In this document: one piece after another, positions 26,369 to 31,141 of the stretch
How positions within the stretch are numbered: position 1 is the stretch's first letter
How the letters are laid out: each line of letters starts with the position of its first letter
From: Pseudomonas sp. B21-028
GTDB taxonomy: Bacteria; Pseudomonadota; Gammaproteobacteria; Pseudomonadales; Pseudomonadaceae
DNA length: 64,000 nucleotides
Assembly: GCF_024749045.1 (NCBI RefSeq)
Contig: NZ_CP087184.1
Span: 5,146,001 to 5,210,000 of the forward strand
Reading direction: 5' to 3'
The notes under the pieces: generated by a model
The model's input: only the letters and a program-made list of their open reading frames with translations
What the model was told of the DNA's origin: nothing
The model's database searches: none
Program-made: the position numbers and the translations under genes

Positions 26369-29300
26369 CTACAGGTCCTGGGCCAAGTCAAAACGCGGGC
26401 TTTCTCCCCAGTCCGAGCCGGCCTGCCGCGCCTTTACCCAGTGCGGGCCAGGCGTCAATGGCTCCCGGGGTGAGCCCGCCCAAGTGCCGTCAGCCACCGC
26501 AAGGTCCGGGGCGATCACCTGCCGGACATCGAACCAGTGCGACACCTCAACGCGCTTGCCGCTCTCACCGGTGCCTTCGAAGAACGCCGTGCCCGCGAAC
26601 CAGTGCCCCGCCTCCGGCGTCGTGAAGGTTGGAGCCGCGGACAACAACAGCACCTCATGGGTCGCGCTCCACCCGGAGCTGTACCCGTCGCAGTCCTGCT
26701 GCACGATCAACGAGTGAGAACCGGCCGGGCGTTCGATAACCAGGGGAATCGACCAGGTCCGGTTCGCCTGCACCTGCACCCTGCCCAGCACCGTGTCGGG
26801 TGCATCGCTCCAGGCCACTTCGACCCAGTCGCCGGTGTAGCCATGCCCGGAAATCGTCACCGTTGCACCGAGGTGCTGCTGCAGTGCCGGCGACTCGATG
26901 ACCGGGGTGGCCGGCACGGCGGTGAAGGCATGGTCGGGGCTGAAGACAGATTCTTCATCTTGAAAAAACTGTTTGGCCCGCAGCGTATAGGTGCCCACCG
27001 GCAAGTGCGCGTCATAGAACCAGTAGCCATCGTTGCCTCTGGCCCGCACCCTCGCCAAAGGCTCTTCCGCACCGTCGAGCCACAACTCGACGATCGCGGT
27101 GTCCCACTGCGATTTTTGGCGGGCATAGCCGTCAATGACCGAGACCCGGGCAATGGCATCGCCCGGCTGGGGATGGTCGATGGTGGGGGGGAACAGGATC
27201 ACCTTGAAGCTGACGGGCTCGCTGTCCTCGGAGGGAAAGTCGCCGTATTGCTGGACCGCGTAAACCTTGTGATCGTCAAACGCAAGGTCCTCGGTAATGG
27301 GCACCGACCATTCGTTGTCGGTGACCTCGGCTTCGCCGAGAAGGGTTTCTGATACAAAGTCAAACACGCGCATCAAAGCCCCAGGGATACCACCCGTGCC
27401 CTGAATGATCGGGTTGTGGTCCACCTCTTCATCATTCAGCGGTGAGGTGATGACCGGCCGCAACACGACGACCTCGAACGGTTGGGACACCTCATCCGAG
27501 GTCTGGCCGCCGAAGGACTGGGTCACCCTGGCGGTATAAGTGCCGGGCATGAAAGGCTCCGTCCGGGTAAAACTCCAAGTGGCGCCGCTCACTTGCGCGG
27601 CATAGGGGGAATTCGGGTCCCCATCGAACTGAAGCTGCACCTGCGCACCATTCAGGCAGGTGCCGGAGAAGCGCGGAGTCAGGCCGTCCTGGCGAACCTC
27701 CACGGTGGGGACCGGGGCCCGGATGACGAATTGCCTTGAAGTGGGCTCGGAAGAGAGGTTATTGAACAACTGCCGGGCTTCGACAGAATAACTCCCCGGA
27801 TTCCAGGCTTCGGTCGCAGCGCTTGACCACCTGTTGTTGGCAACCTCGACCGTCGGCACGGCAGGCGTCGATTCGCCCACACGCAGCACCTCGATCTGCG
27901 CCGCAAGCTGTCCCGTCCAACTGTGACCGATACCGGAAAACTCCGGTTTGCGGTCCCCGCCAACCTGAACCTCCAAGGTCGGCATCGGCACAGGTATCGT
28001 GACCGTGAGCCTGTCGCTCCAATCCGAATGAATCCAGGCGGAACCGTCGGGGAGTTTTTGCCGGATATCCACCGAGTAGTTTCCCGGCGGCTGATCGGTC
28101 CATTCCACCGCCCACTGGCCGCCATTGACGCCCGTGCTGACCTGCGGGTCGTTAACGCCGGTTTTATGGACATCCACCGTGGCACCGACGTGACCGGTGC
28201 CGGAGAATTTCGCCGTGCCGGGGCTGGGGTAGGTGACCTGGATATTGAGCAGTTTCGGCGGTTTTATCTTGAACGCTCTAGGCGAACTACGAGCCGAGTC
28301 TTTCCCGTTCAATGTTTGCAAGACAACCAGCGAGACAGGCCCCCCCGGCACGGTCACGTCTGCATTCCAACTACCATTGTCCTGCGTGACCACCGTGTGA
28401 CCCACACTGGTTTCCGACAAGTCGCGATAGACCTTCACCGTTGCACCCTTGAGTGCGTTGTTACCGCTGAGGTTAAAGGTCTGTGCCTGAATACTATTGG
28501 CGGCAGGACCAGTGATGGTCGGCGTGCGTAATACGGTATAGATCACGGGTTCGGAAATAACGCTGGGGAAACCCGCCAACTCAAAGATTGCCACCACCGC
28601 GATAGAGCCTTCGGGTAGCACTACATCGATAGCCGTTTCCCAAGTGTCGTTCGCAGTCACCGTCACTTCGGGCGCCAATTGAAAACTCTGATTGTCCCTC
28701 ATGACCACTTTGACTTTACTTCCAGGGGCGCCAAAGCCCTTGAACTTGTCCCCAATGCCTAGAACAGCATTGGCGTCGGGTGCGGTGATGTAAGCCAGGT
28801 AGATGTCTTGACTGGCTGCACGTTCGGACTCTTTAAGGCTGCCGGCCATCTTCTGATAGGCGTCTAGCGTCATGTGCCGCCCGTCTGCCGAAAGACTGAC
28901 AAGGGCTTGCCAGGTTCCGTTTACCGTCGTTATCTGTGCAACGTGGTGGGCAGGGTCGATACTGGTTCGTACAAACACCGTTCCCCCGTTGAATATGCCA
29001 CCCGTTCCATACATATAAAACCTTCGGGCACTGACATTTCTGATCGGGGTTATGGAGGGCTTAGGAATGACGTACTCTACTCCGGCTTGTGCCGTCATGT
29101 TCTTGTCGGTCGTGTCGTCCCTGTCATATATAAAGTTGAAATGTATGATTGCATGATCGACATTCCCAGCCACGGAGCGACTCTTCACATAAGTGTGCCA
29201 TTGTCCGTCTTGGGTCGCATGTTTCTCCAGATGATCCCAACCGGTGTCAACTGCTGAAACCAGCCCTAGTTTAATATCCCCCCCAGTCCGACCATTGTCT

Positions 29301-29593
29301 GCGGCCCTAAATCGTATGGTTTCTACCGTGAACGTTTTGCCATTCCCAGACCATATGGCGTTAAGTTCCAATTCAGCCCAATAAGCCGCACCACTACTGG
29401 CCCTCAGGGTTTTCACCGCGCGGGTTTCACCGACATGGGTGAGCCCATCGGCAATATTATCGTCGGGCTTCCCTGTGGACTCGCTCTGCTCAACACCGTC
29501 ATCACTTTGCATGACTACTCGCTCAACTATAAGAAAGTTTCGGTTGGCAACATCGCCTAAGCGCTTGAGCCAGTAGATGACAGGCGTGCTCAC
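26369..29593 (-). CDS. Ten-repeat Ig-like protein of the Tc locus
   Basis: The 1074-residue protein has a unique N-terminal region (about 1-175) followed by roughly ten beta-sandwich repeats of 85-95 residues. Each begins with a P-x-I/V strand, a G-T-G or G-x-G turn (SGTGHVGATVDV, SGIGHSWTGQLAAQ, EGTGESGKRVEV), a W near the middle (NGTWQ, NGSWN, NNRWS, DNEWS) and a Y-x-V/A-Q strand. No signal peptide or membrane helix is seen. The start is a GTG (29591-29593) with AGGTG upstream. It heads the operon with the VRP1 gene. The first third is noticeably less GC-rich than its surroundings. Function unknown; a receptor-binding or scaffolding role with the A protein is inference. Confidence 0.8.
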   Translation of the reverse strand: MSTPVIYWLKRLGDVANRNFLIVERVVMQSDDGVEQSESTGKPDDNIADGLTHVGETRAVKTLRASSGAAYWAELELNAIWSGNGKTFTVETIRFRAADNGRTGGDIKLGLVSAVDTGWDHLEKHATQDGQWHTYVKSRSVAGNVDHAIIHFNFIYDRDDTTDKNMTAQAGVEYVIPKPSITPIRNVSARRFYMYGTGGIFNGGTVFVRTSIDPAHHVAQITTVNGTWQALVSLSADGRHMTLDAYQKMAGSLKESERAASQDIYLAYITAPDANAVLGIGDKFKGFGAPGSKVKVVMRDNQSFQLAPEVTVTANDTWETAIDVVLPEGSIAVVAIFELAGFPSVISEPVIYTVLRTPTITGPAANSIQAQTFNLSGNNALKGATVKVYRDLSETSVGHTVVTQDNGSWNADVTVPGGPVSLVVLQTLNGKDSARSSPRAFKIKPPKLLNIQVTYPSPGTAKFSGTGHVGATVDVHKTGVNDPQVSTGVNGGQWAVEWTDQPPGNYSVDIRQKLPDGSAWIHSDWSDRLTVTIPVPMPTLEVQVGGDRKPEFSGIGHSWTGQLAAQIEVLRVGESTPAVPTVEVANNRWSSAATEAWNPGSYSVEARQLFNNLSSEPTSRQFVIRAPVPTVEVRQDGLTPRFSGTCLNGAQVQLQFDGDPNSPYAAQVSGATWSFTRTEPFMPGTYTARVTQSFGGQTSDEVSQPFEVVVLRPVITSPLNDEEVDHNPIIQGTGGIPGALMRVFDFVSETLLGEAEVTDNEWSVPITEDLAFDDHKVYAVQQYGDFPSEDSEPVSFKVILFPPTIDHPQPGDAIARVSVIDGYARQKSQWDTAIVELWLDGAEEPLARVRARGNDGYWFYDAHLPVGTYTLRAKQFFQDEESVFSPDHAFTAVPATPVIESPALQQHLGATVTISGHGYTGDWVEVAWSDAPDTVLGRVQVQANRTWSIPLVIERPAGSHSLIVQQDCDGYSSGWSATHEVLLLSAAPTFTTPEAGHWFAGTAFFEGTGESGKRVEVSHWFDVRQVIAPDLAVADGTWAGSPREPLTPGPHWVKARQAGSDWGESPRFDLAQDL

Positions 29594-29617: not shown

Positions 29618-29770
29618 TCCCGACGAGCGGCTCGGCTTGGAGAGGAAAAAACCGCTTGACTACAGCGCCTTGCGCAACGGACTACAGATCCGCCAGAATC
29701 CGCCGGCTTGTGTGCCTTGGCTGTGCCCCGTAACTTGATTCGTGTCGCTGATATCCAGCGGTCGGGTTTA

Positions 29771-29967
29771 GTCGCCCGGGAGGTATAACGAAGTGCATAA
29801 GCATCATCCAGTCGGGTTCCCTATTCCCGTGCTTAATGGTGGCTGTGCGCAGGGCGCCCTCGGGCGCGCCGGTTCTTTCGTTATCCTCCCGGTCGACTAA
29901 CCTGCGTTCAGCCGCCACCCTCGTTTAGTCGCGAGTCGGTGGCAGCCCATTTAATGGATAACGAAAC
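29771..29967 (+). promoter_or_regulatory. Structured leader of the DUF6124 gene with anti-SD and anti-anti-SD segments
   Basis: Segment 1 (29771-29793, GTCGCCCGGGAGGTATAACG then AAG) is complementary to segment 2 (29875-29897, CTTTCGTTATCCTCCCGG then TCGAC) with one mismatch and one bulge. Segment 2 also pairs perfectly over 11 bases (TTTCGTTATCC, 29876-29886) with segment 3 (GGATAACGAAA, 29956-29966), which is the ribosome site of the DUF6124 gene. Between them are a long stem (29838-29853 with 29901-29916, 13 of 16 identical to complement), a GCGCC-CTCG-GGCGC hairpin (29854-29867), and a GCCACC/CTCG...CGAG/GGTGGC hairpin (29914-29943). The pairings are mutually exclusive, so this looks like a translational switch. 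Confidence 0.65.
29793..29900 (+). CDS. Leader ORF (35 residues) upstream of the DUF6124 gene
   Basis: A GTG at 29793 lies nine bases after GGGAGG (29778-29783) and opens 35 codons closed by TAA at 29898-29900. The peptide starts HKHHPVGFPIPVLNGGC and ends GSFVILPVD; it has no recognised domain. Its ribosome site is segment 1 of the leader switch, and its last codons run through segment 2 (the anti-SD). A ribosome translating it would therefore free the DUF6124 ribosome site. That makes a regulatory leader peptide more likely than a free-standing protein. Alternative: a chance ORF within a conserved RNA. Confidence 0.45.
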   Translation: MHKHHPVGFPIPVLNGGCAQGALGRAGSFVILPVD

Positions 29968-30336
29968 ATGATCAAACCAACACCCAATCCCCCGCACACC
30001 GACCCACTGTCCCCCCACGAAACCCTCGACCCCGCCAAGCTCGATCAAGCCGCTCAAAGAGCCCTGGACTACTACCTCAAGCCCGACAACGGCCAACCCG
30101 AGCAGAAAACCGCCAAACACCTGGACTACTTCATCGTCGCCCCCGACGCCGACCCCGAAGGCATGCTCGCGCACACTTACGAAACCTTCTGCTCGGTCAG
30201 CACGCTGATTCTGGATTTATCGGAAGATCTGGAAGGCGCCCCGCGCAACCTGGCCCTGGCGATTCACCAGATGGGCGAGATGGGGGTGTTGTTGCTGGAG
30301 AAGCTGCTGGACGGCGAAGAGAAGATCCAGCGCTGA
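29968..30336 (+). CDS. DUF6124 family protein
   Basis: The 122-residue acidic protein has a Pro-rich N-terminus (MIKPTPNPPHTDPLSPHETL), AAQRALDYYLKPDNGQPE, LDYFIVAPDADPEGMLAHTY, and two predicted helices with ETFCSVSTLILDLSEDLEG and LALAIHQMGEMGVLLLEKLL. I recognise this as the Pseudomonas-specific DUF6124 family, which has no known function. Other members, from memory, carry a similar leader. It is divergent from the Tc A operon and is followed by a REP pair. Confidence 0.85.
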   Translation: MIKPTPNPPHTDPLSPHETLDPAKLDQAAQRALDYYLKPDNGQPEQKTAKHLDYFIVAPDADPEGMLAHTYETFCSVSTLILDLSEDLEGAPRNLALAIHQMGEMGVLLLEKLLDGEEKIQR

Positions 30337-30358: not shown

Positions 30359-30448
30359 TGTGGGAGCGGGCTTGCTCGCGAAGAGGGCTGCACATTCAAT
30401 ATCGATGAAACTGGCCGACCGCTATCGCGAGCAGGCTCGCTCCCACAG
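30359..30448. repeat. REP pair, type A (inverted)
   Basis: TGTGGGAGCGGGCTTGCTCG at 30360 and ATCGCGAGCAGGCTCGCTCC near 30424 face each other across about 40 bases, between convergent DUF6124 and PilZ genes. Confidence 0.85.
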
Positions 30449-30510: not shown

Positions 30511-30870
30511 TCAAGCCGACGCCGGCAACGAGTGGAAACTGAAATAATGCTGCAGCGCACTGACCAGCTGGCTGTACTCCGGTGGCGCCCCATGGAGGCT
30601 GAAGCCGGCGTCGAAATGCTGTGGCGTCACGTCTTCGTGGCACCACAGGCAAGTGGCCTTCAGCTTGATGTTCCTCTGCGGCCCTTCGTCGGCGGGAATT
30701 TTCAGGTGCAGCTCAAAGTCTGCGCCAATCATCAACGGCAACGTGCTGATCAGCATCAGGCCATGTTCAGAAACGTTCCCCAGAAAACCGATGGGCCTGT
30801 CGTTGACGCCGTTGAACACTTTCAAGAAGCACGGCAGATCCTGCCGATCAATTCGACGCTTTTTGTACAT
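30511..30870 (-). CDS. PilZ domain protein (cyclic-di-GMP binding)
   Basis: The protein (119 residues from ATG 30868-30870; a TTG start at 30897 would add nine) carries both PilZ ligand motifs: R-x-x-x-R as R5-R6-I-D-R9 (KKRRIDRQDLP) and N-x-S-x-x-G as N32-V-S34-E-H-G37 (GNVSEHGLML). It should bind cyclic-di-GMP. Neither start has a clear Shine-Dalgarno sequence. No output domain is fused, so it probably acts on a partner. The diguanylate cyclase gene four kilobases away is a possible source of ligand. Confidence 0.85.
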   Translation of the reverse strand: MYKKRRIDRQDLPCFLKVFNGVNDRPIGFLGNVSEHGLMLISTLPLMIGADFELHLKIPADEGPQRNIKLKATCLWCHEDVTPQHFDAGFSLHGAPPEYSQLVSALQHYFSFHSLPASA

Positions 30871-31141
30871 GTCTTGTATCGCTTTTTCCAGCCCCAAACA
30901 GAGGCCAACCCAATGCTTCGGAACGAGCCCAAGCCAGCCCGCTCTCCCCGATCCCGGTGCCAGACGCCCGTAAGCGCCTTGAGCCTGCTCCTGCCGGTCA
31001 CAGGTGTTGCCTCGCGATTAGAGAATCTGCTCTAGCCACGAGTTGTACAAATATAGCTCAAGCCTGGACAGAAGCCAGTCCCCAGCGATGCCGCTCCTCG
31101 GCTGGGAAATATTCCCAGACGCGGCTTCGCTGCGGTGGCGA
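30871..31141. other. Intergenic region before the PilZ gene
   Basis: The stretch between the PilZ start and the lipoprotein stop holds only a near-palindrome CTGGGAAATATTCCCAG (about 31105-31121). No gene or clear promoter is seen. Confidence 0.3.

Follow-up and report, generated by a model that had tools for sequence, protein, structure and literature searches.

A three-segment element located ahead of a DUF6124 gene is a C4 antisense RNA, i.e. a member of the antisense family of phage P1/P7 immunity. In phage P1, the immI leader consists of a promoter, a1/b1, C4, a2/b2 over the ribosome site and then the gene. We consider, with a probability of about 0.85, that the element is a C4 antisense module with a comparable layout which silences the DUF6124 gene behind it. 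The features of the locus are collected in Table 1, where the a1/b1, a2/b2 and a'/b' names are taken from the P1 literature, a1/b1 also being used in an Rfam title.

Table 1. Features of the C4-DUF6124 locus (positions within the window)
Feature	Coordinates	Strand	Basis
Probable promoter, TTGTGT-17 bases-TAACTT	29708..29736	+	read from sequence, conservation in relatives
a1/b1 leader	29744..29793	+	complementary to a' and b'
a1, TTAGTCG	29768-29774	+	7-base complement of a'
b1 (segment 1)	29778-29792	+	complement of b'
35-codon ORF, judged incidental	29793..29900	+	present, without conservation
C4 antisense RNA	29832..29922	+	RF01695 match, 73.6 bits, cut-off 45
GGT, base of C4 stem; possible RNase P cutting site	29838..29840	+	read from sequence
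b' loop of C4 (inside segment 2)	29876..29886	+	11 perfect bases with 29956-29966
a' of C4, CGACTAA	29894..29900	+	7-base complement of a1 and a2
a2, TTAGTCG	29925..29931	+	complementary to a'
b2, ribosome site of DUF6124 gene (segment 3)	29956..29966	+	b' complement; own-target match tested
DUF6124 gene, 122 residues; likely C4 target	29968..30336	+	PF19619, 87.3 bits, cut-off 27

The C4 module and its pairings

In the window (the whole stretch of DNA analysed, 64 kb), RF01695 was the sole Rfam family found above its cut-off. A first-pass annotation had proposed that three segments compete at this place and that no leader of such a design was described. The segments are indeed present, as read in the sequence, segment 1 being the b1 decoy copy upstream, segment 2 the b' loop of C4 and segment 3 the b2 target at the ribosome site, but the design is the one described in RF01695. 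Segment 2 pairs with segment 1 (b' with b1, -23.7 kcal/mol, one bulge), to which a' with a1 adds 7 bp, and it also pairs over 11 perfect bases with segment 3 (-15.1 kcal/mol). The annotation was right in taking the upstream copy and the DUF6124 ribosome site as exclusive partners of segment 2, pointing to translational control. Besides the three segments there is a second complementary trio, formed by a1, a' and a2; thus a'/b' is complementary to a2/b2 over the ribosome site of the next gene, and the upstream a1/b1 copy is recognizable by its pairing.

Folding of 29751-30020 to minimum energy (-110 kcal/mol; z -5.38) yields the pairing of segments 1 and 2, and none of 200 shuffles was equally stable. 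In the naked leader, we computed -113.1 kcal/mol with a1/b1 paired versus -93.7 kcal/mol with C4 enforced, the kissing contact not being counted; since the a1/b1 pairing is the more stable one, the off state would need cutting or a folding order. The pairings exceed chance, as they recur with altered letters in paralogues and relatives; they covary, compensated changes keeping them in relatives. Of the hairpins that the first-pass annotation had noted before segment 3, all are part of C4 or of its 3' flank. Among 35 C4 copies of the same genome, two-sided changes affect 16 of the 23 stem pairs; the consensus fold of these copies clearly displays the main stem and the first hairpin, and the window's copy also shows the second one of the Rfam model.

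Like c4-a1b1 (RF03163), the leader at 29744-29793 sits upstream of C4 and pairs with it, but with 23.4 bits it scores below the cut-off of this family (46.7). A faint likeness to the IsrK RNA of prophage Gifsy-1 (RF01394) at 29744-29822 gave 17.1 bits, far under the cut-off of 50, and membership is not claimed. A first alignment took in 15 of 30 relatives, in which the promoter letters TTGTG are kept in 15/15 and TAACTT in 12/15. Runs of at least five T within 60 bases ahead of C4, which might indicate a terminator between b1 and C4, were detected in 5 of the 35 modules of the genome, the window not being among them. As a sign of RNase P processing, the window shows only the GGT motif at 29838-29840; a GGW motif was reported for C4 of P1/P7 and of Acinetobacter baumannii in the available text of PMC5320573.

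The DUF6124 gene is flanked by genes for a 1074-residue protein with bacterial Ig-like domains (26369-29593, minus strand) and for a PilZ-domain protein (30511-30897, minus strand). Both neighbours of the cassette are on the opposite strand, so DUF6124 stands alone. A GC-rich inverted pair, gtgggagcgggcttgctcgcga ... tcgcgagcaggctcgctcccac, lies directly after the gene at 30359-30447 and resembles a Pseudomonas REP element. AlphaFold2 predicts three helices for the DUF6124 protein of the window (mean pLDDT 74.7, pTM 0.44); with this model, Foldseek returned no match in the PDB at E <=0.001, and no NCBIfam or PHROGs match was found for the protein.

C4 copies fit their own targets

We used as address score the longest perfect pairing of the b' loop with the ribosome-site zone, compared between own and foreign pairs with 20,000 shuffles. 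By this measure, a C4 copy on average matches its own target much better than the targets of other copies. In the own genome (n=35), the score was 7.49 for own versus 4.62 for foreign pairs, the own target tying with or beating all the rest in 26 of 35 cases. For the window gene and its relatives we obtained 8.80 versus 5.37 (n=30), or 8.11 versus 5.16 without repeated loops (n=19); for the genus, 7.97 versus 4.81 (n=60) and 7.82 versus 4.73 without repeats (n=39), the genus set being one C4 locus per genome from the top of the list for 60 genomes, a choice biased to high-scoring C4. When the non-redundant sets were pooled (n=89), the b' loop matched its own ribosome site over 7.72 bases versus 4.68 for foreign sites, and no shuffle of the 20,000 exceeded 5.18. 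The other pairings followed the same trend, with 6.93 versus 4.21 for a' with a2, 6.88 versus 4.45 for a' with a1 and 6.28 versus 4.35 for b' with b1. Among the relatives of the window gene a' is nearly invariant, so the a' test says little there (p 0.03-0.05). As a control, b' was compared with a coding stretch, giving 4.55 versus 4.43 in the pooled set (p 0.098), p 0.75 for the relatives and p 0.60 for the genus; the own genome showed a small background excess (p 0.0033).

When both parts of the address were required (at least 7 bases for b' and 6 for a'), 24 of 35 own pairs matched versus 6 of 1,190 foreign pairs, two of these six being the tandem copies 741014/741736; the remaining 11 own modules failed this joint match. 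Ranking by duplex energy was less favourable, placing the own target first in only 14/35 cases for b' against the ribosome zone (median rank 2) and in 4/35 for a' against a2, and against the upstream zone in 11/35 for a' and 3/35 for b'.

The addresses can differ between nearly identical genes. The paralogues 2761755 and 2759390 share 96% of their protein and 97% of their gene sequence, and their b' loops are only 33% identical; counting wobble pairs, they match their own targets over 8 and 6 bases versus 4 and 5 for each other's. For the 13 own pairs whose proteins share 80% identity or more, mean identities were 0.83 for the gene, 0.85 for the C4 scaffold, 0.80 for a', 0.56 for b' and 0.57 for the ribosome zone. 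A counter-case is the pair 1146187 and 5705039, with identical b' and different a'. Of the relatives, 12 exceed 80% identity to the window protein; seven of them have a clearly different b' together with a matching ribosome site (L059, L061, L062, L064-L067) and five keep or almost keep b' (L056-L058, L060, L063). In the mechanism proposed below, the leader would silence the DUF6124 gene that it precedes, and its address would be largely private to the locus.

Distribution of the cassettes and genes behind C4

The genome of the window (6.49 Mb, one contig) contains 35 C4 copies above cut-off and one fragment; since scoring covered 150 of 2,037 first-look candidates, 35 is possibly a lower bound. 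It has 29 DUF6124 genes. With a profile built in this analysis, a DUF6124 gene or remnant was detected directly behind 27 of the 35 C4s, two of the 27 (741736, 3097680) having lost their start. One of the 29 genes, 2185959, has no C4 that we could find, and another, 587291 (L052), has a weak C4 remnant (14.9 bits, 3' part only), which is preceded by a REP-like sequence. When at most 3 mismatches were allowed, a conserved box of 35 bases gave 19 matches in the genome, versus none for the reversed control, and 18 of them are upstream of a C4 above cut-off; the window's own version is too divergent to be counted among the 19. A single box copy has no C4 behind it (G000:C1:93045-93079, minus strand).

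In sampled genomes of the genus, C4 was present in 110/119 and DUF6124 in 95/119; 33 C4 candidates were scored per genome, so that the number of copies counted in one genome cannot exceed 33. In the family sample, C4 was found in 41 of 59 genomes and in 17 of 19 genera; DUF6124 was found in three of the 59, all from the window's genus, and in none of the 54 genomes of other genera. From these sequence counts, DUF6124 looks to have been recruited within the genus. The first-pass annotation was right that similar sequence lies ahead of other family members, and C4 is what we found there. In the set made up of the window gene and its relatives, C4 precedes the gene at all 30 loci; automatic start finding missed some of them (15/30 aligned, then 18/30 found) and all 30 were recovered by C4 position. 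C4 also precedes DUF6124 in 79 of the best 80 of 395 relatives on genome contigs (the exception is L176), the closest named ones, at 97%, belonging to P. mediterranea and P. corrugata, and in four of five loci on viral contigs of IMG/VR (the exception is L228). One locus, L205, has two C4 copies (749-836 and 1366-1450) within 620 bases.

DUF6124 is not the only gene type placed behind C4. At 60 genus C4 loci, the next gene was DUF6124 (17), a 52-residue family (17), a Bro-N type (8), a family of about 90 residues (5), DUF3077 (4) or unassigned (9), one member each of the 52-residue, Bro-N, 90-residue and DUF3077 classes having been scanned and the others grouped by likeness. The scanned Bro-N member (L096) matched PF02498 and a phage 'anti-repressor Ant', and L115 matched DUF3077. 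The scanned members of the 52-residue and 90-residue families had no Pfam match; for the former (L086, with 16 similar genus loci), NCBIfam and PHROGs also gave none. In phage P1, C4 controls the Ant anti-repressor, according to the available text of PMC8546580 and PMC8198154; the Bro-N/Ant-like genes behind some C4s therefore link these cassettes to the ancestral arrangement. In the own genome, the C4 at 870041 is followed by a 28-residue and then a 179-residue ORF (L026, 842-1600), neither being DUF6124. A shared origin of DUF6124 and DUF3077 was rejected, the profile comparison not being significant. DUF3077 is mentioned once in the available text of PMC9630843, and no mention of DUF6124 was found in the literature library searched.

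DUF6124 was also considered as a present phage or plasmid gene and rejected, since searches for its relatives returned one phage record (at its edge), no plasmid record and five IMG/VR loci, i.e. not the phage-borne situation of a P1-type immI. In the phage record (L230, EU982300.1), a C4-DUF6124 cassette lies beside prtR at the edge of the P. fluorescens Q8r1-96 prophage record.

Proposed mechanism, alternatives and known systems

In the mechanism that we propose, a single transcript would span the promoter-proximal a1/b1, C4, a2/b2 and the DUF6124 gene. C4 would fold into a long stem and two hairpins, and its a'/b' would bind a2/b2, covering the DUF6124 ribosome site and thereby stopping translation in cis. 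RNase P may free C4, which could then also reach additional copies of this mRNA in trans. A competitor for a'/b' would be the a1/b1 copy upstream; when it is paired, C4 could not form and the ribosome site would be open. The balance might be set by RNase P cutting at the GGT or by the folding order.

The first-pass annotation had instead put DUF6124 under the control of the 35-codon leader ORF, whose translation would open the ribosome site. This ORF exists as claimed, with a purine-rich stretch upstream, and it overlaps the b' loop; moreover, an ORF of some kind crosses this loop in 21 of the 30 loci (window gene and relatives, the window's own copy included), in 24 of 35 modules of the own genome and in 29 of 60 genus modules, with many different end points, these being raw counts. 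However, the same ORF is shared by only 4 of the 30 loci (L055-L058, with proteins 96-100% identical), nine loci have none across the loop, and start, frame, length and stop vary. Length differences of the b' loop among loci are not divisible by three. Since the start, frame and stop are not kept, control by this ORF is not supported, and we rejected such an attenuator as extremely improbable. The GGGAGG assigned as its ribosome site lies inside b1; its likeness to such a site would follow from the fact that b1, just as the true site, is complementary to the b' loop. As the element is a C4 antisense RNA, the effector is likely RNA and not a stalled ribosome. Of the switch model, the exclusive pairings and their recurrence in the family therefore stand and control by the leader ORF does not, and the C4 antisense identity had been missed.

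That C4 is a phage immunity RNA, and that Bro-N anti-repressor genes lie behind some copies, could also mean that the main role of the C4s is in anti-phage immunity or in a wider sRNA network, with phage or other RNAs as their trans targets, and that their match to the next gene is secondary. For A. baumannii, the available text of PMC5320573 mentions mRNAs of bacteria or of incoming phages as possible targets. The covariation of the b' loop with its own downstream ribosome site makes such a main role distinctly unlikely. Broken modules, i.e. the DUF6124 genes without start at 741736 and 3097680 and the mere C4 remnant at 587291, could suggest phage immunity leaders that have lost their function and are decaying, but the compensated pairing changes in relatives and the two-sided changes in the C4 stem point to selection, so we hold decay to be very improbable.

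Starting from the C4 antisense module, a broader picture would be that a phage immunity RNA became, in Pseudomonas, a part that the genome uses over and over, in dozens of cassettes per genome. Each would be a self-silenced small gene whose private two-part RNA address evolves more quickly than the protein, which would let duplicates escape mutual silencing. In a bolder form, the cassettes would be a sensing repertoire, each gene being released when a matching foreign RNA, e.g. a phage a1/b1-like decoy, soaks up its C4. We put this forward as a speculation with a small chance of being right.

A single strain would offer around 35 natural pairs of antisense RNA and target that share one scaffold and, in most cases, should not cross-react. 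Such a set would be useful for studying the divergence of RNA addresses once a gene has been duplicated, and as a source of regulators to build. In addition, the cassettes provide a regulatory handle on the DUF6124 family and a likely direct target for chromosomal C4 copies, a point left open in the available text of the A. baumannii work (PMC5320573).

C4 itself is already known, as are its prediction in Pseudomonadales, among others, by Weinberg et al. and the 21-member group of A. baumannii, both as given in the available text of PMC5320573; the c4 antisense RNA and c4-a1b1 are listed in that of Weinberg 2010 (PMC2864571). What is newer is that C4 cassettes with private addresses, which appear to be self-silencing, occur as a set across the genus. 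We found no paper on such a set, a weak statement since the literature search was incomplete and supplements were outside it.

With C4 of P1/P7 (RF01695, immI operon c4-icd-ant), the module of the window shares the fold, the pairing of a'/b' with a2/b2 at the ribosome site, the a1/b1 copy and the GGT at the stem base. It differs in being chromosomal, with many copies per genome that vary in both a' and b', in having DUF6124 as target and not icd/ant, and in that no phage context was seen at the locus. The Group 1 C4-like sRNAs of A. baumannii (21 members), for which evidence of processing was reported, likewise occur as many chromosomal copies in one genome; in that group, as far as the available text of PMC5320573 goes, variability is confined to a' and no target was identified, whereas in Pseudomonas the variation extends to a' and b' alike, and the two match the gene next to them.
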